Virus record (IMG/VR): IMGVR_UViG_3300024520_000327
Coordinates: 1-31,725 of that record
Length of the DNA: 31,725 bases
Source: a virus
Direction: 5' to 3' (one strand)
In this document: positions 3,446-28,035 of the stretch, in pieces
Layout: every line of letters begins with the position of its first letter
Numbering within the stretch: the stretch's first letter is position 1
Notes under the pieces: model-generated
What the model was told of the DNA's origin: nothing
What the model saw: the letters and a program-made list of their open reading frames with translations, nothing else
Database searches by the model: none
Translations under genes and position numbers: made by a program

Positions 3446-4207
3446 TCATATTCCAAAAATATTTTTCACTTCAATAATTTTCCTGTTTTGGAAATATGAA
3501 ATTTCATCACCAACTTTTGCGTTTTCATATTGATGAATAAATTTCTGAATCTGTTCTGGTTTCCATCGAATTGATGCCGCTGCATTTCTGAATTTGTTTT
3601 CAATATCTTGACGAACCATTGAATAATGATGCATCAAAATTTGATCAACAGGAAACACAAACGGGTTTTTGGCTGGTGTTATTTTTATTGATGGATCAAC
3701 TTTAACGTGGTAATCTGAAGATGAAATAACAGTTGTTGATTCGTACAACTTACAAATGAACGGCATGAAGTATTCTTCTAATGGCTCCATTCTCCAGTTT
3801 GGTTGCTTGTAATAAGTCGCCATTCTAGTGAACGTGGTTTCATATCCTTTTCTAATTATTAACTCCTTAGAGCGTTTAAATTCATCAGGAACATAATAAT
3901 GATCACACGCAGACGTAAAAAAATGAGTTGCACCAATTTGTTTTGCGTAATCGATTCGCAATTGAAGTTTTGCACGTTCATTTTGTTTGGTGTTCAATTT
4001 GAAATCAGGAACAAATTCCAACAGGTGGATTTTTGGATCATCTTTGAATCGTTCTATGAATGGTAATATTTCATTAGATATTTCACCTTTGTTTGAATAC
4101 CATTGCCAGCATAGAACTACATGATCAACATCATCATATATTTGTTCAATAGATTTTTCTAATAGTTCCAGCCCATTCCAAAGGGTATACATTGCGGCAA
4201 GTCTCAT
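3446..4207 (-). CDS. GT-A-like glycosyltransferase
   Basis: A 253-residue soluble protein and the last gene of the minus-strand glycan cassette. It starts with a GT-A-like first strand (MRLAAMYTLWNGLELLEKSI). A DxD-type site is replaced by CDHYY (residues 101-105) after the hydrophobic stretch ATHFFTSA, and FPVDQILMHHYS lies near the C-terminus, a His-rich motif seen in small GT-A-fold enzymes. No membrane segment is present, so it would act in the cytoplasm, transferring a sugar from a nucleotide donor to an unknown acceptor. It overlaps the acyltransferase upstream by 4 bases, indicating translational coupling. The family is assigned by motif only. Confidence 0.65.
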   Translation of the reverse strand: MRLAAMYTLWNGLELLEKSIEQIYDDVDHVVLCWQWYSNKGEISNEILPFIERFKDDPKIHLLEFVPDFKLNTKQNERAKLQLRIDYAKQIGATHFFTSACDHYYVPDEFKRSKELIIRKGYETTFTRMATYYKQPNWRMEPLEEYFMPFICKLYESTTVISSSDYHVKVDPSIKITPAKNPFVFPVDQILMHHYSMVRQDIENKFRNAAASIRWKPEQIQKFIHQYENAKVGDEISYFQNRKIIEVKNIFGI

Positions 4208-4692
4208 TTTCTAGGTTTTGCGGGAATTCCCATGTAATTATCATTTCCTTTTAAATCATTAACAACAACAGAACCCATTGCAATGAATGATTTATCACCA
4301 ATTGAAACACTGTTACGGATAACACAACCAATTTTTATTTTACATTCGTCACCAATTGAAACGTTACCTGGAATAATTGTTCCAGCTCCAATTTCACAAT
4401 CATTTCCAATTATTGATTCATGGCCTATATTTACACAGTTCATGATTAGGTTATTATCTCCAATTTCGGTATCACCAATGTTTACCATTATTGAACAGTG
4501 ACAACCAATTCTATTATTATCACCAATAACTACTGATCCAATAAAACATTCATTTTTCTGGTTCCTAACAAATCCATTTTGTCCAATAACCGAATAAGGC
4601 ATTATTATATTCCCTTCACCCATTGAAACATTATCACCAATAATTGCGGTTTCATGAATCAAATTTCCTTTTATTTCATTATATCCTTTCAT
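4204..4692 (-). CDS. left-handed beta-helix acyltransferase
   Basis: A 162-residue protein made almost entirely of hexapeptide repeats ([IV]Gxxxx: AIIGDNVSMGEGN, VVIGDNNRIGCH, CEIGAGTIIPGNVSIGDE), the signature of LpxA/NeuD/WbbJ-type trimeric transferases. A probable catalytic His lies in NIGHES. The C-terminus YMGIPAKPRK is the usual closing motif of sugar O- or N-acetyltransferases. It likely adds an acetyl or other acyl group to a sugar nucleotide or a transferred sugar made by its neighbours. It overlaps the genes on both sides by 4 bases. No transmembrane part is seen. Confidence 0.85.
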   Translation of the reverse strand: MKGYNEIKGNLIHETAIIGDNVSMGEGNIIMPYSVIGQNGFVRNQKNECFIGSVVIGDNNRIGCHCSIMVNIGDTEIGDNNLIMNCVNIGHESIIGNDCEIGAGTIIPGNVSIGDECKIKIGCVIRNSVSIGDKSFIAMGSVVVNDLKGNDNYMGIPAKPRK

Positions 4693-5606
4693 ACCTTCAA
4701 AAGTTTTTGATATTCAATTAATGGCAGGAATTCACCAATTTTTTTTGTATCGATCAACTCCCAATTATCCTTGTTGGGTTTGAATGAATTAATTCCTTCA
4801 CCTTTGATGTCTAGAACTAAATGTTTATCCTTGATTGTAATTCGAGCATTTGAAAAATCTGTTGATCTTAAATTGCTATTTATATTTGCGTCCGGGCTTG
4901 AATTCCTGTTCGTGGTCCATAACTTCCAATCAAATTCATTTGCTACAAACTTACTGATGCATCGAGCAACGGCCATTGGTTCGTTTAATCTTCTTCTTGA
5001 TGTATATCCTTTACAATATGCAGATTGTTTTGTGATACGATCAAAATAATACAAATCCATGACTTCAATTATGTGAACACCTTTCAACATGTGATGAATG
5101 TATTCCTTGAGTAATGAAGTTGAAATAATATCATCAGATCCAAGAAATAAAATATAGTCCGGATTAAATTGTTTAGCAAAAGTTAAACGTGCATTTGCCT
5201 TATTTCTTAATGGCAAATTTGCATGTTCCATGTAAAAAACATCATTAGAATCACATATTGATTTACTTGCTGATCCTTCACTCCCAACTGAAATTGGTAT
5301 TATTTCTATTTCGGGGCATTCCTTTTGAAGTCTTTTGATATGATCACACCACAATTGGAACAAATCAAAACGTTTCCACATCATAGTTCCAATCACTAAC
5401 TTGATTTTGTGATCAGTTTTGAATGCTATGCTTTGACCGTTTGACGCTCCAATTTTTTCAAGGAAACCAGATTGAACTAGTTTCACAGCGTTTCCACTAG
5501 TGAAATCAAATTCACTAACAATATCACCACTTTTAAAAAGTTGGCCTTTACGACCTCCAAGGCTCAGAGCTTTAACTCTATATTTTTTTGGCTGGTATCC
5601 CGACAT
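4689..5606 (-). CDS. glycosyltransferase with capsid-neighbour domain at N-terminus
   Basis: 305 residues in two parts. Residues 8-52 (KYRVKALSLGGRKGQLFKSG, then DIVSEFDF and GFLEK) closely match the N-terminus of the 147-residue protein encoded at 23317 just after the major capsid gene; about 19 of 44 positions agree by eye with one gap. Residues 67-305 form a GT-A-like domain with the metal-site motif FLGSDD at 154-159, preceded by NPDYI. The fused module may recruit the enzyme to a virion component, which is inference. It overlaps the following acyltransferase by 4 bases and the preceding one by 29. No membrane segment is present, so a cytoplasmic acceptor is likely. Confidence 0.7.
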   Translation of the reverse strand: MSGYQPKKYRVKALSLGGRKGQLFKSGDIVSEFDFTSGNAVKLVQSGFLEKIGASNGQSIAFKTDHKIKLVIGTMMWKRFDLFQLWCDHIKRLQKECPEIEIIPISVGSEGSASKSICDSNDVFYMEHANLPLRNKANARLTFAKQFNPDYILFLGSDDIISTSLLKEYIHHMLKGVHIIEVMDLYYFDRITKQSAYCKGYTSRRRLNEPMAVARCISKFVANEFDWKLWTTNRNSSPDANINSNLRSTDFSNARITIKDKHLVLDIKGEGINSFKPNKDNWELIDTKKIGEFLPLIEYQKLLKV

Positions 5607-6027
5607 ATTTTGCAGCTTCAGTTATTGATTTATTAACAAATGACATTGATCCAATCACAGTATCATCACAGATTTCAATTCCATGTTGCAAAACTGAATG
5701 TGTACCGATGAAACATTCAGTTCCAATTTTTGCGCCTCCAATTTGTTTCTCTTCAGTGTTCAGGTTATTTGTCATTACGCGAGGGCATAAGTACGAGCCA
5801 TCACCAACATCAACGCCACGTGCAATTATAGTATCATATCGCAATGTTACATTATTTCCAATCTTACATTTTCCTGAAAATTTAACACCGCTATCAATGT
5901 AGCAGTTTTTCCCAATGATTGTTCCAGAACGTATTTCAACATATGATTGAATTACTGTTCCCTCACCAATTTCAGCATCATCTGCAATTACGCAGAAACT
6001 TCCAATTTTAACTGTTTTATGTATCAT
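5578..6027 (-). CDS. left-handed beta-helix acyltransferase
   Basis: 149 residues from the ATG at 6027. An upstream in-frame ATG at 6072 would add 15 residues lying wholly inside the previous gene, so 6027 is preferred; it overlaps the upstream stop by 11 bases. The protein consists of hexapeptide repeats (VKIGSFCVIADDAEIGEG, SGTIIGKNCYIDSG, AKIGTECFIGTHSVLQHG) and ends YVGIPAKKI like the other cassette acyltransferase. A candidate catalytic His lies in GTHSVL or QHGIEI. It is a likely sugar acetyltransferase acting with the flanking glycosyltransferases. Two such enzymes in one cassette suggest a di-acylated or two-sugar product. Confidence 0.82.
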   Translation of the reverse strand: MIHKTVKIGSFCVIADDAEIGEGTVIQSYVEIRSGTIIGKNCYIDSGVKFSGKCKIGNNVTLRYDTIIARGVDVGDGSYLCPRVMTNNLNTEEKQIGGAKIGTECFIGTHSVLQHGIEICDDTVIGSMSFVNKSITEAAKYVGIPAKKI

Positions 6028-6670
6028 ATTGCTTGGTATAAAAAAAAAGTGATTCAGTATCCATATTTTCAATTAAGAATGATCCATTTGAATCATCGTT
6101 TATGTATCGGTGAAAGCTACAGTTGTGATTTCGACCACCACACAAACCAACACCATGTTTAATTCCTATTGAAATAATTTCTTCAGGTTTGAATGTATGA
6201 CCTTTCAACGTTTTCCATAAATGTAAATCAGTATATGGTTCATGGTCCACCGGCCAATTAAAATTTAAATCAGGTTTTAACAACGTATTCATTGCTGATG
6301 CCCTTAATTGATGATTCATTGTGAAGTGCTTATTGATACCAATATGGTAATAAATAGTGTAATTAGTACCAATTATTTCTGGTTTCCCTGCTTTCACCCA
6401 TTTATTCACCATTGTTTCAATGTATGTTGGTGAATACCAATCATCATTTTCCATTAAAAGGATACAATCTAATTCTTTATTTCTTAATCGATCATATCCA
6501 ATTCTATATCTCCATGTGATATCGCAACGGTCATTAATAGGTAGATCATCAACCAGTTCAATAATATCTGCTCTCATGGTTTGATTGCCAATCATTCGAA
6601 GGCAATTTTTCAGGAATTCAGGGCGATCTGATCTATCAGGAATAATTATTCCAATTTTAATTTTATTCAT
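6017..6670 (-). CDS. GT2-like glycosyltransferase, first gene of cassette
   Basis: A 217-residue GT-A-fold enzyme. The N-terminus IKIGIIIPDRSDRPEFLKNC is typical of GT2-like first strands, and MENDDWY (residues 73-79) gives the acidic nucleotide-sugar/metal site. A His/Cys-rich C-terminal loop (GVGLCGGRNHNCSFHRY) is unusual. It is the promoter-proximal gene of the minus-strand cassette: the start codon lies only 4 bases after a perfect -7 box and 20 bases from a palindromic operator, so the message may be nearly leaderless. It is compact like other phage glycosyltransferases and has no membrane anchor. Confidence 0.7.
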   Translation of the reverse strand: MNKIKIGIIIPDRSDRPEFLKNCLRMIGNQTMRADIIELVDDLPINDRCDITWRYRIGYDRLRNKELDCILLMENDDWYSPTYIETMVNKWVKAGKPEIIGTNYTIYYHIGINKHFTMNHQLRASAMNTLLKPDLNFNWPVDHEPYTDLHLWKTLKGHTFKPEEIISIGIKHGVGLCGGRNHNCSFHRYINDDSNGSFLIENMDTESLFFYTKQYDT

Positions 6671-12006: not shown

Positions 12007-13166
12007 TAAACATTCCAACTATAGCAGAATTATACAATGGAATCATAGCTGATTTGGAGGCTCAATATTCAGGGCTTTCAATTCCATTATTCGGAAAGAA
12101 TTTCTTACGTGCATTAGCTGCTGTTCAGGCTGGACAATTAAAACTTGCTTATTTGAATCTGGCTAAGGTTCAGAAAAATATATTTGCTGATACAGCTGAT
12201 TCAGAAACTATTGGCGGTACATTGGAACGTTTTGGGCGTGTTAAAATTGGCCGTGGTCCATTTGTTGCTACATCAGGAGAATATACCGTTCAATTAACCG
12301 GAACAATAGGTTCTGTTGTTCCAGCATCAACAACATTTAAAAGTAATGATGATTCATTGAATCCTGGTAAATTATTCATTTTAGATAATGAATTCATATT
12401 GGATGGAACTGATATTGTTACTTTGAGAGCATTGGAATCTGGTTTGGATTCTCAGTTATCAATTAGTGATGAACTAACTTCAACACAACCATTAGCATTG
12501 GTTGATTCATTGGGTACTGTATTAACAGAATCTATTGAACCAATTGCAGCTGAAACAATTGAGGAATACAGGGAAAAAGTATTACAATCCTATCAACTGG
12601 AACCACAAGGTGGTGCGGGTTCTGATTATCGAATCTGGGCATCTGATGCGCAAGGTGTTAATGAAACATATCCATATGCAGCATCTGGAGTTTCAAACGA
12701 AGTGAATCTATATATTGAAGCAACAATTGTTGATTCTACTGATGGGAAAGGAACTCCAACGACCGCAATTAAAGATGCTGTTGAATCTGCAATTGAAGAT
12801 CCAACAGTTGATCGACCATCTAGAAAACCATTAGCAGTTTATGCGGTTAATTATTTAGATGTTTCACCACTGGATATTGATATTGTAATTCCTTCATACT
12901 CTGGATTGACTCCAGATATACAAACATCGATTTTTAACGCAATGAAATCTGAATTGGATGATATACGTCCATTCGTTTCATCAATCGATATCCTAGCTAA
13001 TAAAAATGACATTTTCGATTTAAATAAAATTGTATCAGTAATATTGAATGCTGTTCCGGGAAGTCAATTTGGAACGGTTACAATGGATATTGATTCAAAT
13101 CCAGTTGCAACATTTACATTTGAAAACGGTGACATTCCATATTTGAATTCAATAACGTATGTTTAA
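12003..13166 (+). CDS. baseplate wedge protein, gp47/J-like
   Basis: 387 residues from the ATG at 12003, which overlaps the previous stop; the upstream in-frame start at 11967 is inside the gp46-like gene. It has the baseplate-J pattern: an N-terminal IPTIAELYNGIIADLEAQYS helix, a middle section with IAAETIEEYREKVLQSYQLE followed by GGAGSDYRIWASDAQGVNE, and a C-terminal FEFENG-like end (TFTFENGDIPYLNSI). It forms the wedge arms linking hub and fibres. It overlaps the next gene by 8 bases. Confidence 0.85.
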   Translation: MINIPTIAELYNGIIADLEAQYSGLSIPLFGKNFLRALAAVQAGQLKLAYLNLAKVQKNIFADTADSETIGGTLERFGRVKIGRGPFVATSGEYTVQLTGTIGSVVPASTTFKSNDDSLNPGKLFILDNEFILDGTDIVTLRALESGLDSQLSISDELTSTQPLALVDSLGTVLTESIEPIAAETIEEYREKVLQSYQLEPQGGAGSDYRIWASDAQGVNETYPYAASGVSNEVNLYIEATIVDSTDGKGTPTTAIKDAVESAIEDPTVDRPSRKPLAVYAVNYLDVSPLDIDIVIPSYSGLTPDIQTSIFNAMKSELDDIRPFVSSIDILANKNDIFDLNKIVSVILNAVPGSQFGTVTMDIDSNPVATFTFENGDIPYLNSITYV

Positions 13167-13920
13167 AATCAAGTTAAAGAAATTAATTAATCAGCTGTAT
13201 CCAACAGGAAGGGCGTTTAATATTCCAAAAAATGGAGTATTGGATAAACTTCATGATGGATTAACGATTAGTCAAAATCAATTGATTGAAGATTCACTAT
13301 CAATTTTTGATTCAATATTACCTGATAATGATAACTTTACGGCTGATGATGCAACACGATGGGAAGAACGTTTGGGAATGATCACAAATGAATCTGTTCT
13401 TTTGAGCGATAGAAAATCAGCTATCATCAGGAAAATGAATCATCCGGGTACAATTTTAGCGCGTCAAAGTTGGGATTATTTACAGGAACAGTTGCAATTG
13501 GCTGGATTTGATTTGTACGTTTATGAGAACATACCAGAACAAACAGTTGAACAAATATTGCAACCATTTTCTGAAACAGGACAATTGGGCGATGGTCAAT
13601 TAGATGATTTCGAATTGGGTGATGTTTTTAGCGTTTATCCAGAACTGTTTAATTGTGCTGAACTTGGAGATGGTCAATTAGGGGATTTTCAATTGGATGA
13701 ATGTGTATATAAAAACAAAATAGCAAATAATATTGATGAATTAAAGGATATTCCATTTAATATTGGTCAGAATTATAGAAGTATATTTTTTATTGGTGGT
13801 CCTGTTATTGGAGAATTTGCCAATGTAAATGAAGAGAGAAAAAACGAATTCCGACAACTCGTATTGAAAATAAAGCCAGTACAAGCAATCGGAATTTTAT
13901 TTATAAATTACACGTATTAA
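13159..13920 (+). CDS. baseplate/tail protein, Mu gp48-like (YmfQ/DUF2313 type)
   Basis: 253 residues. The N-terminus LINQLYPTGRAFNIPKNG and the motif DDATRWEERLGM (about residues 63-74) match the gp48/YmfQ type, which sits after the J-like wedge in Mu-like phages and joins it to the fibres. The central part carries an imperfect duplication, QLGDGQLDDFELGD (142-155) and ELGDGQLGDFQLDE (168-181). The C-terminus has FFIGGPVIGEFANV and a basic end. It probably forms the distal wedge and fibre attachment point. Confidence 0.72.
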   Translation: MFKIKLKKLINQLYPTGRAFNIPKNGVLDKLHDGLTISQNQLIEDSLSIFDSILPDNDNFTADDATRWEERLGMITNESVLLSDRKSAIIRKMNHPGTILARQSWDYLQEQLQLAGFDLYVYENIPEQTVEQILQPFSETGQLGDGQLDDFELGDVFSVYPELFNCAELGDGQLGDFQLDECVYKNKIANNIDELKDIPFNIGQNYRSIFFIGGPVIGEFANVNEERKNEFRQLVLKIKPVQAIGILFINYTY

Positions 13921-13930
13921 AAAAGAAAAG

Positions 13931-14446
13931 ATGATAAAATTAGAAAATTTACCAAACGTAACAGCACCAACGGCTGAATTCCCATATGGTGATGTTAAAG
14001 ATAGGGTTGGACTCATTGAAGGAACAAAGATGAATAGAGAATCATTATCTGATGTGTGGCAATTTTTCGCCAAATTAGCCGATGAAGGCGATGTGACTCC
14101 AAACGGAATTGTTGATAATGAATATGATGGTTTCCAGCTATTTGAAGCTCTTATAGCTGTTAATGGAGGGCTATCAACAATAGTGGAATTGGGCGTTTGG
14201 GATATGGATGCAACTTTGAACGTTACAATTGCACATGGTATAGTTGATCATACAAAAATACACGCTATTAATGTTGTTGTTGTTGATGATAATGGGCAAA
14301 TTTATCCGTTGGATTTTGGTGGTACTTATGTTGCTGGACCTACAAATATAATTGTCTCTAGAGATAACGGAGGGAATTTTGATAATACATCATTTAATGA
14401 TGGTGTAATTAATAGAGGACACATTTTTATAAAACATTCAATTTAA
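13931..14446 (+). CDS. baseplate-attached fibre/tip protein with GVWDMD domain
   Basis: A 171-residue protein directly after the gp48-like gene, where receptor-binding or fibre proteins usually lie. Residues 1-80 are mixed helix with an acidic middle (DVWQFFAKLADEGDV). Residues 86-171 form a compact beta-rich domain starting LGVWDMD and ending with SRDNGGNFDNTSFND and INRGHIFI. I know this domain type from virion proteins of Bacteroidota phages, but its function is not established. The next gene encodes the same domain behind a lipoprotein signal. The likely role is a tail tip or host-contact protein. Confidence 0.6.
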   Translation: MIKLENLPNVTAPTAEFPYGDVKDRVGLIEGTKMNRESLSDVWQFFAKLADEGDVTPNGIVDNEYDGFQLFEALIAVNGGLSTIVELGVWDMDATLNVTIAHGIVDHTKIHAINVVVVDDNGQIYPLDFGGTYVAGPTNIIVSRDNGGNFDNTSFNDGVINRGHIFIKHSI

Positions 14447-14451
14447 TTATG

Positions 14452-14459
14452 TATATTTA
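14452..14459 (+). promoter_or_regulatory. possible own promoter of lipoprotein gene
   Basis: TATATTTA differs from TAnnTTTG only in the last base and lies 15 bases before the lipoprotein ATG in the 28-base gap after the fibre gene. No -33 TTTG is obvious. Most neighbouring genes overlap, so a gap with a -7-like box fits an independently expressed moron. Confidence 0.35.
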
Positions 14460-14474
14460 CATAAAAAAATAAAC

Positions 14475-14843
14475 ATGAAAAATTTAACTTTATTATTATT
14501 AGTATTTACATTTTCATTGGCATCATGTAAAAAAGAAGTTCCGCAAACTGAAACTATTCCACCATCGAATTATTCTATTTTAAACATTGGCGTTTGGGAT
14601 ATGGATGAAAGTGTTGGAGTATTTGTTGATGTTTCATCAATTGATGTTTCAAAAATTATCAGTGTTGATATTGAAATAATTTCTGATAATGGGGCTAAAA
14701 CTGGTTTGTTATCTCACGGAATGTATTTAATTGAGGGTAATACTATCTATTTGATGCGTGATCATGATGGTTATTTCCATCAAACAGCATTTGATGATGA
14801 TTCAATTAATCGTGGGAATATAAGATTCACAATGACTGATTAA
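14475..14843 (+). CDS. phage-encoded lipoprotein, paralogue of fibre C-terminal domain
   Basis: 122 residues. Residues 1-18 are a signal peptide with a lipobox, LASC (Cys18), followed by KKE, so the protein should be lipidated and placed in the host envelope. Residues 37-122 repeat the domain of the preceding gene almost without gaps: GVWDMD, SDNG, MRDHDGYFHQTAFDDDSINR and GNIRF line up with GVWDMD, DDNG, SRDNGGNF and INRGHIFI; about a third of positions are identical by eye. The residues after Cys18 are not the acidic stretch typical of surface-exported Bacteroidota lipoproteins, so the side of the outer membrane is uncertain. Superinfection exclusion is the leading inference. The stop overlaps the next ATG by one base. 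Confidence 0.8.
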   Translation: MKNLTLLLLVFTFSLASCKKEVPQTETIPPSNYSILNIGVWDMDESVGVFVDVSSIDVSKIISVDIEIISDNGAKTGLLSHGMYLIEGNTIYLMRDHDGYFHQTAFDDDSINRGNIRFTMTD

Positions 14844-15568
14844 TGCCATTCATTAACGTAAATAATGATGCTGTTGTTAATCTAACAAACAAACTGGAGA
14901 AGTTACATAAATCAGCTTTTCCAGTTGCTGTTCGAACATCTTTGAATTCAGCCGCTTTTGACGTTAAGAAAAGTACAATGCCGAAATCAGCAAAACGATT
15001 TCAAAATAGAGATAAAAAATTTTTCAAGTCCAATTCTAGTGTTGATATGGCAAAGGGTTTCAATACTAAATCAATGGCATCAACTGTTGGTTTTGTTTCC
15101 CGTAGAGGTAAAAACCAAGCCGTTGATGATCTTGAACAACAAGAGCGTGGAGGAACTATAAAAGGAAGGTCATTAATTGCAATGGATTCTGCGAGATCTA
15201 GTAAAAGCAACAAGAAAAAAGTTCAAAAAAAGAACAGGATTTCAACGATGCCAAACGTGGTTAATTCTAGGAAAGTTCGTGGAGCTAATGCAAAACAAAG
15301 GTTTGTTAAATCCGTAGTTAAAGCGGGTGTTGGTGGGTTGGTTTTATCTGAATATAGAGGAAAGGAAATATTGTGGAGAGTTAGATCATTAAGCCGGTCC
15401 GGTGGAAAGTTTAAATTAACTGCATTGTATTCCTACAAAAAGGGGCGTAATGTTAGCGTTAAAGCAACGCACTTCATGGAGAAAGCATCTATAAAATCAG
15501 CTAAAAAACTTGATGATTTTTATATCATTGAGGGAGAAAAGCAAATTAAACGATTGATGAACAAATGA
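14843..15568 (+). CDS. putative tail completion protein (minor tail Z-like)
   Basis: A very basic 241-residue protein. The N-terminus (LTNKLEKLHKSAFPVAVRTS, then LNSAAFDVKK) and the following SVGFVSR-like strand recall lambda gpZ-type tail completion proteins, and the Lys/Arg-rich middle (about 115-165) and beta C-terminus also fit. In that role it would cap or complete the tail before head joining. The gene overlaps both neighbours by 1 and 4 bases, so it belongs to the tail operon. An alternative is a general virion assembly protein; the family assignment is moderate at best. Confidence 0.45.
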   Translation: MPFINVNNDAVVNLTNKLEKLHKSAFPVAVRTSLNSAAFDVKKSTMPKSAKRFQNRDKKFFKSNSSVDMAKGFNTKSMASTVGFVSRRGKNQAVDDLEQQERGGTIKGRSLIAMDSARSSKSNKKKVQKKNRISTMPNVVNSRKVRGANAKQRFVKSVVKAGVGGLVLSEYRGKEILWRVRSLSRSGGKFKLTALYSYKKGRNVSVKATHFMEKASIKSAKKLDDFYIIEGEKQIKRLMNK

Positions 15569-27407: not shown

Positions 27408-27742
27408 TGAGAGCGTTCAAAATATATGTAGTGTTAACTATTATAGGTTTGTTATTCCGTTTATTTTGGGATTTAAATCATTGTTATCATTGGGTAAAAG
27501 ATGGTGATTTTTACTTTGGTGTCGGTTTTGCTCTTATATTTATCGCTGGAGCAATATACATTGATAGCACAAAAACCAAAGGGTGGTCAAAAGTATTCAC
27601 TAGATTTGCATTATTTACAGCTATATCAAACCTATGTGATGAAGTCCTTTTCAATCCATTCATTCCTTCATGGCAAGAATGGGTGACGGCTTTAGCAGTT
27701 TTGATTGGTGTTTATATTTACGATAGAAAAAAGAATAAATGA
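27407..27742 (+). CDS. small membrane protein, lysis module
   Basis: 111 residues with about four hydrophobic segments (IYVVLTIIGLLFRLFW, YFGVGFALIFIAGAIYID, and two in the C-terminal half ending in DRKKNK). It overlaps the putative holin gene by 4 bases and the preceding small gene by 1, so it forms part of a lysis-type cluster. It could be an antiholin or second holin, which is inferred from context alone. Confidence 0.45.
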   Translation: MRAFKIYVVLTIIGLLFRLFWDLNHCYHWVKDGDFYFGVGFALIFIAGAIYIDSTKTKGWSKVFTRFALFTAISNLCDEVLFNPFIPSWQEWVTALAVLIGVYIYDRKKNK

Positions 27743-28035
27743 GTTGGGTTGAGGAAACGGGTTGGAAACTGGGTATATTTTTAGCGGGGTGTGCTGGTGC
27801 TGTAGCATCATTTTTGAACCCTCAAAAACTTAAATGGTACGAAAGGATGCTAACTATATTTGTGGGTGGTATTTCAGCAATGTACATAACGCCATTCACA
27901 GTGAGTGTTGTTAGTGGTTTTCATGATGTAAGTTCAAGTGCGCAATTATTCTTAGGGTTTCTAATTGGATACTCTGGATTAAAGTCTATTGAACTGGCCA
28001 TTGTAGAAGTCAAGAAACGATTTAAAAAGAAATGA
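27739..28035 (+). CDS. putative holin
   Basis: 98 residues with three hydrophobic segments (LGIFLAGCAGAVASFL, LTIFVGGISAMYITPF, AQLFLGFLIGYSGLKS) and a basic tail ending KKRFKKK, the layout of small holins. It is the last plus-strand gene before a strong terminator and directly overlaps another small membrane protein. An endolysin gene is not seen in the window, so lysis must use one encoded elsewhere. Holin sequences diverge quickly, so this is a topology call. Confidence 0.55.
   Translation: MSWVEETGWKLGIFLAGCAGAVASFLNPQKLKWYERMLTIFVGGISAMYITPFTVSVVSGFHDVSSSAQLFLGFLIGYSGLKSIELAIVEVKKRFKKK

Follow-up and report, generated by a model that had tools for sequence, protein, structure and literature searches.

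Why should a phage carry, in the middle of its tail module and directly behind a tail fibre gene, a lipoprotein whose mature part resembles the tip of that same fibre? The locus that raises this question lies in a linear IMG/VR record of 31.7 kb (the window, by which we mean the whole stretch of 31,725 nucleotides that was analysed), from a contractile-tailed phage that infects Bacteroidota-type bacteria. Its genes run in the order terminase, sheath, tube, tape measure, baseplate J, Mu gp48-like baseplate protein, fibre, lipoprotein, minor tail protein, hubs, portal, protease and major head protein. The module is bordered on the left by the Mu gp48-like baseplate gene (phrog_4920; 13159..13920, plus strand), and the lipoprotein slot on the right by the minor tail protein gene (phrog_4688; 14843..15568, plus strand). 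The tail module is syntenic with that of Flavobacterium columnare phage FCV-1 (Ficleduovirus), in which two fibres are encoded and the matching place holds no lipoprotein gene, and phage FCL-2 shows the same tail-module match. Between terminase and sheath, a minus-strand cassette (3446-6670) holds hexapeptide acyltransferase genes (4204-4692 and 5578-6072; PF00132, E 8.5e-22 and 2.6e-26) and glycosyltransferase-2-like genes (4689-5606 and, as a weak match, 6017-6670); it is likely a surface-glycan modifying unit and could also alter a receptor.

FCL-2 is described as having neither integrase nor repressor, and lysogeny was not seen with it (PMC4541368). Likewise, we detected no integrase in the window or in the records of 13 relatives, 14 records in total, of which four relatives' records span 45-48 kb and the fragments weigh less. 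A prophage immunity gene was rejected on the basis of these 14 records, which, together with FCL-2, fit a device of lytic phages such as Llp of phage T5. Family searches say little about the lipoprotein itself, as Pfam gave no useful family for it and no PADLOC model of anti-phage defence matched it at E 0.01 or better.

The lipoprotein carries a copy of the tip of the neighbouring fibre

The fibre gene (13931..14446, plus strand) encodes a fibre-type tail protein of 171 aa, in which profile matches delimit an N-terminal head domain (residues 1-82; 13931..14176, plus strand), and BLASTP and profile searches a C-terminal tip domain that we call type A (residues 83-171; 14177..14443, plus strand). 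The N-terminal part matches phrog_5194, phrog_5221 and the tail-fibre family phrog_26525. The head domain is common to phages with different tips, and its profile matches at least 181 open reading frames in related loci. The lipoprotein gene (122 aa; 14475..14843, plus strand) follows the fibre gene after 28 bp. Its product begins with MKNLTLLLLVFTFSLASC, a clear type II signal consisting of a signal peptide (residues 1-17, MKNLTLLLLVFTFSLAS; 14475..14525, plus strand) and the lipid-attachment cysteine at residue 18 (14526..14528, plus strand), which is followed by KKEVPQTETIPPSNY; the lipobox LAS-C (residues 15-18) was called by our own heuristic rather than by SignalP. The first-pass annotation had read the N-terminus as a lipobox signal peptide, and that reading stands. 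The remainder contains a type A tip domain (residues 34-118; 14574..14828, plus strand), delimited by BLASTP, profile and AlphaFold2. A profile search did not find the fibre head domain in the 122-aa lipoprotein, the signal peptide and a short linker standing in its place.

BLASTP aligns residues 83-165 of the fibre with residues 34-116 of the lipoprotein without a gap, with 30 of 83 positions identical (36%), 50 of 83 positive and an E value of 9e-16, confirming the nearly gap-free match to the fibre C-terminus that had been noticed at first pass. In a Smith-Waterman shuffle test the pair reached z = 19, the top score among the 100 fibre sequences tested, and chance similarity is thereby ruled out. 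The lipoprotein also matches the type A tip profile (domain E 1.1e-22), and a search of the whole record found only two places that match the fibre, namely the fibre itself and the lipoprotein.

The AlphaFold2 model of the lipoprotein is nearly all beta, with a mean pLDDT of 88 that rises to ~95 over most of residues 31-122, and the model of a second tip type found in relatives (type B, see below) is likewise nearly all beta, with a pLDDT of 94. Foldseek gave no PDB match under E 0.001 for the tip models. With VIA-align, the best match of the type B tip was the C-terminal part of the phiAB6 tailspike (Z 6.9), followed by the Pam1 tailspike and the AP22 fibre gp53 (Z ~4.5), and the best match of the type A tip was a P1 baseplate chain (Z 6.0), where both best scores are too low to name a fold relative. 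A single BFVD match (E 8e-4) is to an uncharacterised Delftia phage protein. These structural matches are consistent with a tail-tip beta-sandwich but fall short of proof.

The fibre-proximal slot of relatives is a hotspot for exported proteins

With the lipoprotein as query we obtained no match in viral contigs or known phages, and a single type B copy retrieved only itself; the tip A and tip B alignments proved too variable for scanning contigs with patterns, and relatives were reached only by profile or neighbour-gene searches. The related loci described here (L-numbers) were reached through neighbouring genes and are the closest matches listed, not a random sample, and most of them are metagenomic contigs of unknown host. 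We defined the slot as the interval from the last fibre to the minor tail protein, and 95 distinct slots were readable among the matches listed. The flanking genes abut, with a gap of at most 150 bp and no slot gene, in 58 of the 95. In the other 37 the gap mostly encodes an exported protein, on either the plus or the minus strand. Counting both strands alike, and calling export signals with our own simple rules instead of SignalP, we found a lipobox in 26 of 43 slot genes as opposed to 9 of 940 genes outside the slot (Fisher p 2e-32, a value inflated by relatedness), and another export signal in 5 more of the 43 as opposed to 27 of the 940. At least one exported product, on either strand, is present in 31 of 35 occupied slots. 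In these 95 related loci, exported proteins concentrate in the interval between the fibre gene and the tail gene that follows it.

The slot genes include tip copies, zincin-like lipoproteins and other small lipoproteins, and since 31 of 35 occupied slots encode an exported product while the lipobox frequency elsewhere is about 1%, these families look like alternative occupants of one place. The zincin-like family has weak Pfam metallopeptidase matches and members on both strands. Slot lipoproteins on the plus strand occur at L072:6163-6636, L078:5761-6186, L089:6035-6445, L155:4060-4500 and L169:1008-1463, several with weak zincin metallopeptidase matches, and the minus-strand lipoproteins of L013, L091, L139, L153, L157 and L178 are clearly one family by BLASTP; it is possible that these are lipid-anchored proteases encoded beside the fibre gene. 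Another minus-strand family, of ~115-aa lipoproteins (KINSGCW...), is found in L105, L107, L110 and L111, all with one fibre type. At L027:5285-6984 three tandem full fibres, ~49% alike, stand where the lipoprotein would sit. One locus, L184 (JAESRA010000092.1), is on a contig binned as a Phycisphaerales genome, in which the phage module has 65% identity; it is probably a phage contig that was wrongly binned.

The occupancy of the slot also bears on whether the lipoprotein could serve in lysis, as an outer-membrane spanin or a similar envelope protein. It is a small phage lipoprotein and has a weak match to phrog_456 (Rz-like spanin; E 0.46), which lies over the signal peptide. Against this, more than half of the relatives' slots hold no gene at all, the model predicts a folded all-beta tip domain, and a holin-like gene is present elsewhere in the window (27739-28035). 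On account of the folded tip domain and this holin-like gene we rejected a spanin, and a lysis role of any kind strikes us as the least credible of the explanations considered here.

Exported tip copies match the tip type of their own fibre

Among the loci listed, a tip domain is present in ten slot genes. Three are of type A (the window, L033 and L025), five of type B (L026, L032, L036, L039 and L024) and two of type C (L047 and L022, the latter weak with z 7.9; L022 and L023 are identical and were counted as one). The three tip families have no members in common in iterated profile searches. With the exception of L024, the copies score z = 8 to 36 against their own fibre in shuffle tests. 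The L025 contig ends short of the fibre, and in 8 of the 9 loci with a readable fibre the exported copy is of the same type as the tip of its own fibre, a match that extends over tips A, B and C (p 1.5e-5 with fibres drawn from the 95 slots and 0.004 with types shuffled among the nine, relatedness being ignored in both). The co-variation of the pair across relatives, which the first-pass annotation had suggested examining, is thus found. Such co-inheritance of a copy with the matching tip type would be expected of a blocker that must recognise the receptor of the fibre. The one mismatch, L024:6602-6985, is a type B copy with a membrane helix anchor and no lipobox, adjoining a type C fibre, and looks like either the remaining blocker of a fibre whose tip has since been exchanged or a blocker aimed at another phage.

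Each of the nine stand-alone tips that the profiles detected bears an export signal (the membrane anchor of L024 was entered by hand in this count), as opposed to none of 59 fibre-attached tips. These figures are difficult to reconcile with a virion or assembly role, in which the lipoprotein would join the tail as, for example, a second tip or an assembly partner. The gene does lie inside the tail module, and the relative with tandem full fibres could be taken to point the same way. However, none of the stand-alone tips has a fibre head domain, the slot lipoprotein genes of relatives are often on the opposite strand, and an exported protein leaves the cytoplasm, where tails are built. With stand-alone tips always exported, we rejected a virion component as a highly improbable explanation.

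A single clade for the five type B copies is rejected (AU p 0.0039), and in the type B tree the L026 copy is the sister of its own fibre (support 100/96). For type A, the tree can neither establish nor dismiss a single origin of the copies (p 0.34), and by BLAST the window copy resembles the L033 copy (43%) more closely than its own fibre (36%). Identities within copy/fibre pairs of 22-44% indicate that the pairs are old and not recent duplications. As judged from these sequences the tip copies arose more than once; the type B tree together with types A and C implies at least three separate origins, and probably there were four.

Type B tips are also found outside the slot. In isolated phages they form the C-terminal end of proteins annotated as structural or belonging to the tail module, as in gp46 of the Flavobacterium phage pippi8-1, the tail fibre of the Flavobacterium phage elemo and gp13 of the Olleya phage Harreka_1, where the tip is C-terminal as here but belongs to a large structural protein instead of a small exported one. 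In Bacteroidia genomes they end exported proteins (L196, L197, L198 and L201), some apparently outside phage modules, and the L198 protein is a 180-aa lipoprotein. The tip B domain is hence not purely viral, and these bacterial proteins may be captured decoys or, alternatively, a general binding module. The second alternative could be carried over to the phage lipoprotein, which would then be an adhesion or lysogenic-conversion factor built on a general Bacteroidota module for sticking or glycan uptake, its likeness to the fibre reflecting shared ancestry. The bacterial type B proteins speak for such a factor. Against it, a search of 395 Bacteroidia genomes, run without a positive control, turned up no type A domain, the type of the copy follows that of the adjacent fibre tip and in L026 the copy groups with that very fibre, and there is no sign of lysogeny in these phages. 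We consider an adhesion factor rather unlikely.

Expression and predicted location of the copy

The lipoprotein gene had been credited with a -7-like box of its own, fitting expression outside the late program. A box is indeed present, TATATTTA (14452..14459, plus strand), one mismatch from the Bacteroidota TAnnTTTG and lacking a good -33 element, and since TAnnTTTG is not commoner in the window than in shuffles, the window box is weak evidence. Better promoters, again judged by simple rules, are found in relatives. L022 and L025 have good host-type promoters in the gap before the copy (TTTG...TATATTTG, ~25 bp from the start), L036 has a fair one in the same gap (TTTG...TATCTTTA), and L026 has a -7 box there. 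Independent expression of the copy is therefore weakly supported in the window and better in relatives, as far as promoter-like motifs can tell.

In Bacteroidota, lipoproteins are exported to the surface by motifs after the cysteine, described as K-(D/E)2, Q-A-(D/E)2 and S(D/E)2-3, and in SusG a change of both acidic residues (CSAA, CAAA, CAKK) reduced vesicle packing to ~15% of wild type (PMC6222051). The window lipoprotein reads CKKEVPQ from its lipid cysteine, with one acidic residue, and fits no surface-export motif. Similarly, all seven lipidated tip copies read C(K/S)K(E/D/N) from the lipid cysteine, with one acidic residue in positions +2 to +6. Given this misfit with the published motifs (PMC6222051), surface display is not indicated, and the lipoprotein may face the periplasm if the motif rules hold in this host. 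In L026 and L032 the signal of the copy is of the SPase I type, which predicts a soluble periplasmic protein. The earlier proposal that a tip domain had been moved to the host envelope is well supported, and the arrangement recurs with different tips in relatives.

A periplasmic location would suit a role confined to the time after lysis, in which the copies cover receptors on debris and thereby keep progeny from being bound, any exclusion at live cells being incidental. The phages of this group appear lytic, the two copies with SPase I-type signals would be freed at lysis, and the lipidated copies do not have the surface-export motif. On the other hand, the host-type promoters in L022, L025, L026 and L036 suggest pre-late expression, which anti-trapping would not need. 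We regard anti-trapping as the sole role as unlikely, albeit less so than an adhesion factor.

Discussion

Taken together, we lean slightly towards a receptor-occupancy device linked to the receptor-binding protein (RBP), acting in superinfection exclusion and/or against trapping on debris. This interpretation builds on features that can be read directly from the sequence, namely a copied tip that bears an export signal and lies beside the fibre, its recurrence with other tips and a slot that also holds other exported proteins. The gene would be an RBP-linked accessory gene ('moron') whose product duplicates the fibre tip of the same phage and is exported to the envelope. The tip is the presumed receptor-binding part, given its C-terminal place in fibres, and the exported copy would keep its binding specificity. 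The copy could then occupy the receptor in the periplasm or outer membrane of the infected cell, or on lysis fragments. An occupied receptor would make kin phages fail to adsorb to the infected cell and/or, on debris, would spare the progeny from being trapped. More tentatively, the interval may be a dedicated slot for receptor-linked exported blockers that has repeatedly been filled with a duplicate of the resident fibre tip, which would act as a self-decoy occupying the receptor. Several observations weigh against the receptor-occupancy interpretation. A copy that faces the periplasm could encounter the receptor only in the course of export or once the cell has lysed, the C-terminal domains of tailspikes resemble the tips only weakly (Z 6.9 and below), and there are the L024 type B copy beside a type C fibre and the type B tips of bacterial genomes.

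The closest known parallel is Llp of phage T5. The first-pass annotation had cited Llp as blocking 'by another route', and the parallel is closer than that, as llp too lies directly downstream of the gene for the receptor-binding protein, pb5 (PMC9586334). Llp acts from the periplasm, where it binds FhuA and alters its outer loops by allostery (PMC9586334). Like Llp, which stops adsorption, and like Cor of T1/phi80-like phages, the window protein is a small phage lipoprotein with a lipobox, and its gene adjoins that of the fibre, the putative receptor-binding protein here. Llp, however, is not derived from the receptor-binding protein, whereas the mature domain of the window lipoprotein is a relative of its own fibre tip. 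Moreover, mature Llp and Cor contain an intramolecular disulphide (PMC9586334), which is not possible in the window lipoprotein, as Cys18 is its sole cysteine. Without a second cysteine and with a different domain it is not a member of the Llp family, although by analogy its mode of action may resemble that of Llp. Cells to which purified pb5 has been added are protected from T5 infection (PMC9586334), an instance of the receptor-binding part itself acting as the blocker, there by addition in the laboratory and here, as we propose, as an exported version encoded by the phage. For the Drexlerviridae, RBP loci have been proposed to pair with cognate exclusion genes, an idea cited by the BASEL authors (PMC8594841). 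Receptor-binding and exclusion genes would travel together there as well, but the exclusion genes are not described as RBP copies.

A different comparison is offered by the Ltp/Sie2009-type lipoproteins, which block DNA entry and whose mature part consists of helix-turn-helix repeats; these repeats are absent from the window lipoprotein, the modelled mature part of which is nearly all beta. In retroviral Env-derived interference, as with Fv4 and Refrex-1, an entry protein or a receptor-binding fragment of it is made in the cell and blocks the same receptor. Fv4 and Refrex-1 are encoded by the animal genome and not by an active virus, and have no sequence relation to the window lipoprotein. Phage exclusion lipoproteins as such are already known. 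One that is repeatedly built from the phage's own fibre tip is what would be new, as we found no exported fibre-tip copy described in the literature searched, where absence is not proof.

The exclusion proteins known so far, Llp among them, bear no relation to the receptor-binding protein and are consequently hard to recognise by sequence, and to our knowledge the receptors of most Bacteroidota phages are unknown. A match between an exported copy and a fibre tip points at once to a likely receptor-binding domain and to a candidate blocker, and it turns the occupation of receptors by a phage's own tip into a natural mechanism that can be put to the test. Candidate exclusion proteins can be drawn directly from the several lipoprotein families found in the slot. 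If true, the self-decoy would be an analogue of receptor interference by viral entry proteins, in this case as an exclusion or anti-trapping gene of the phage itself.
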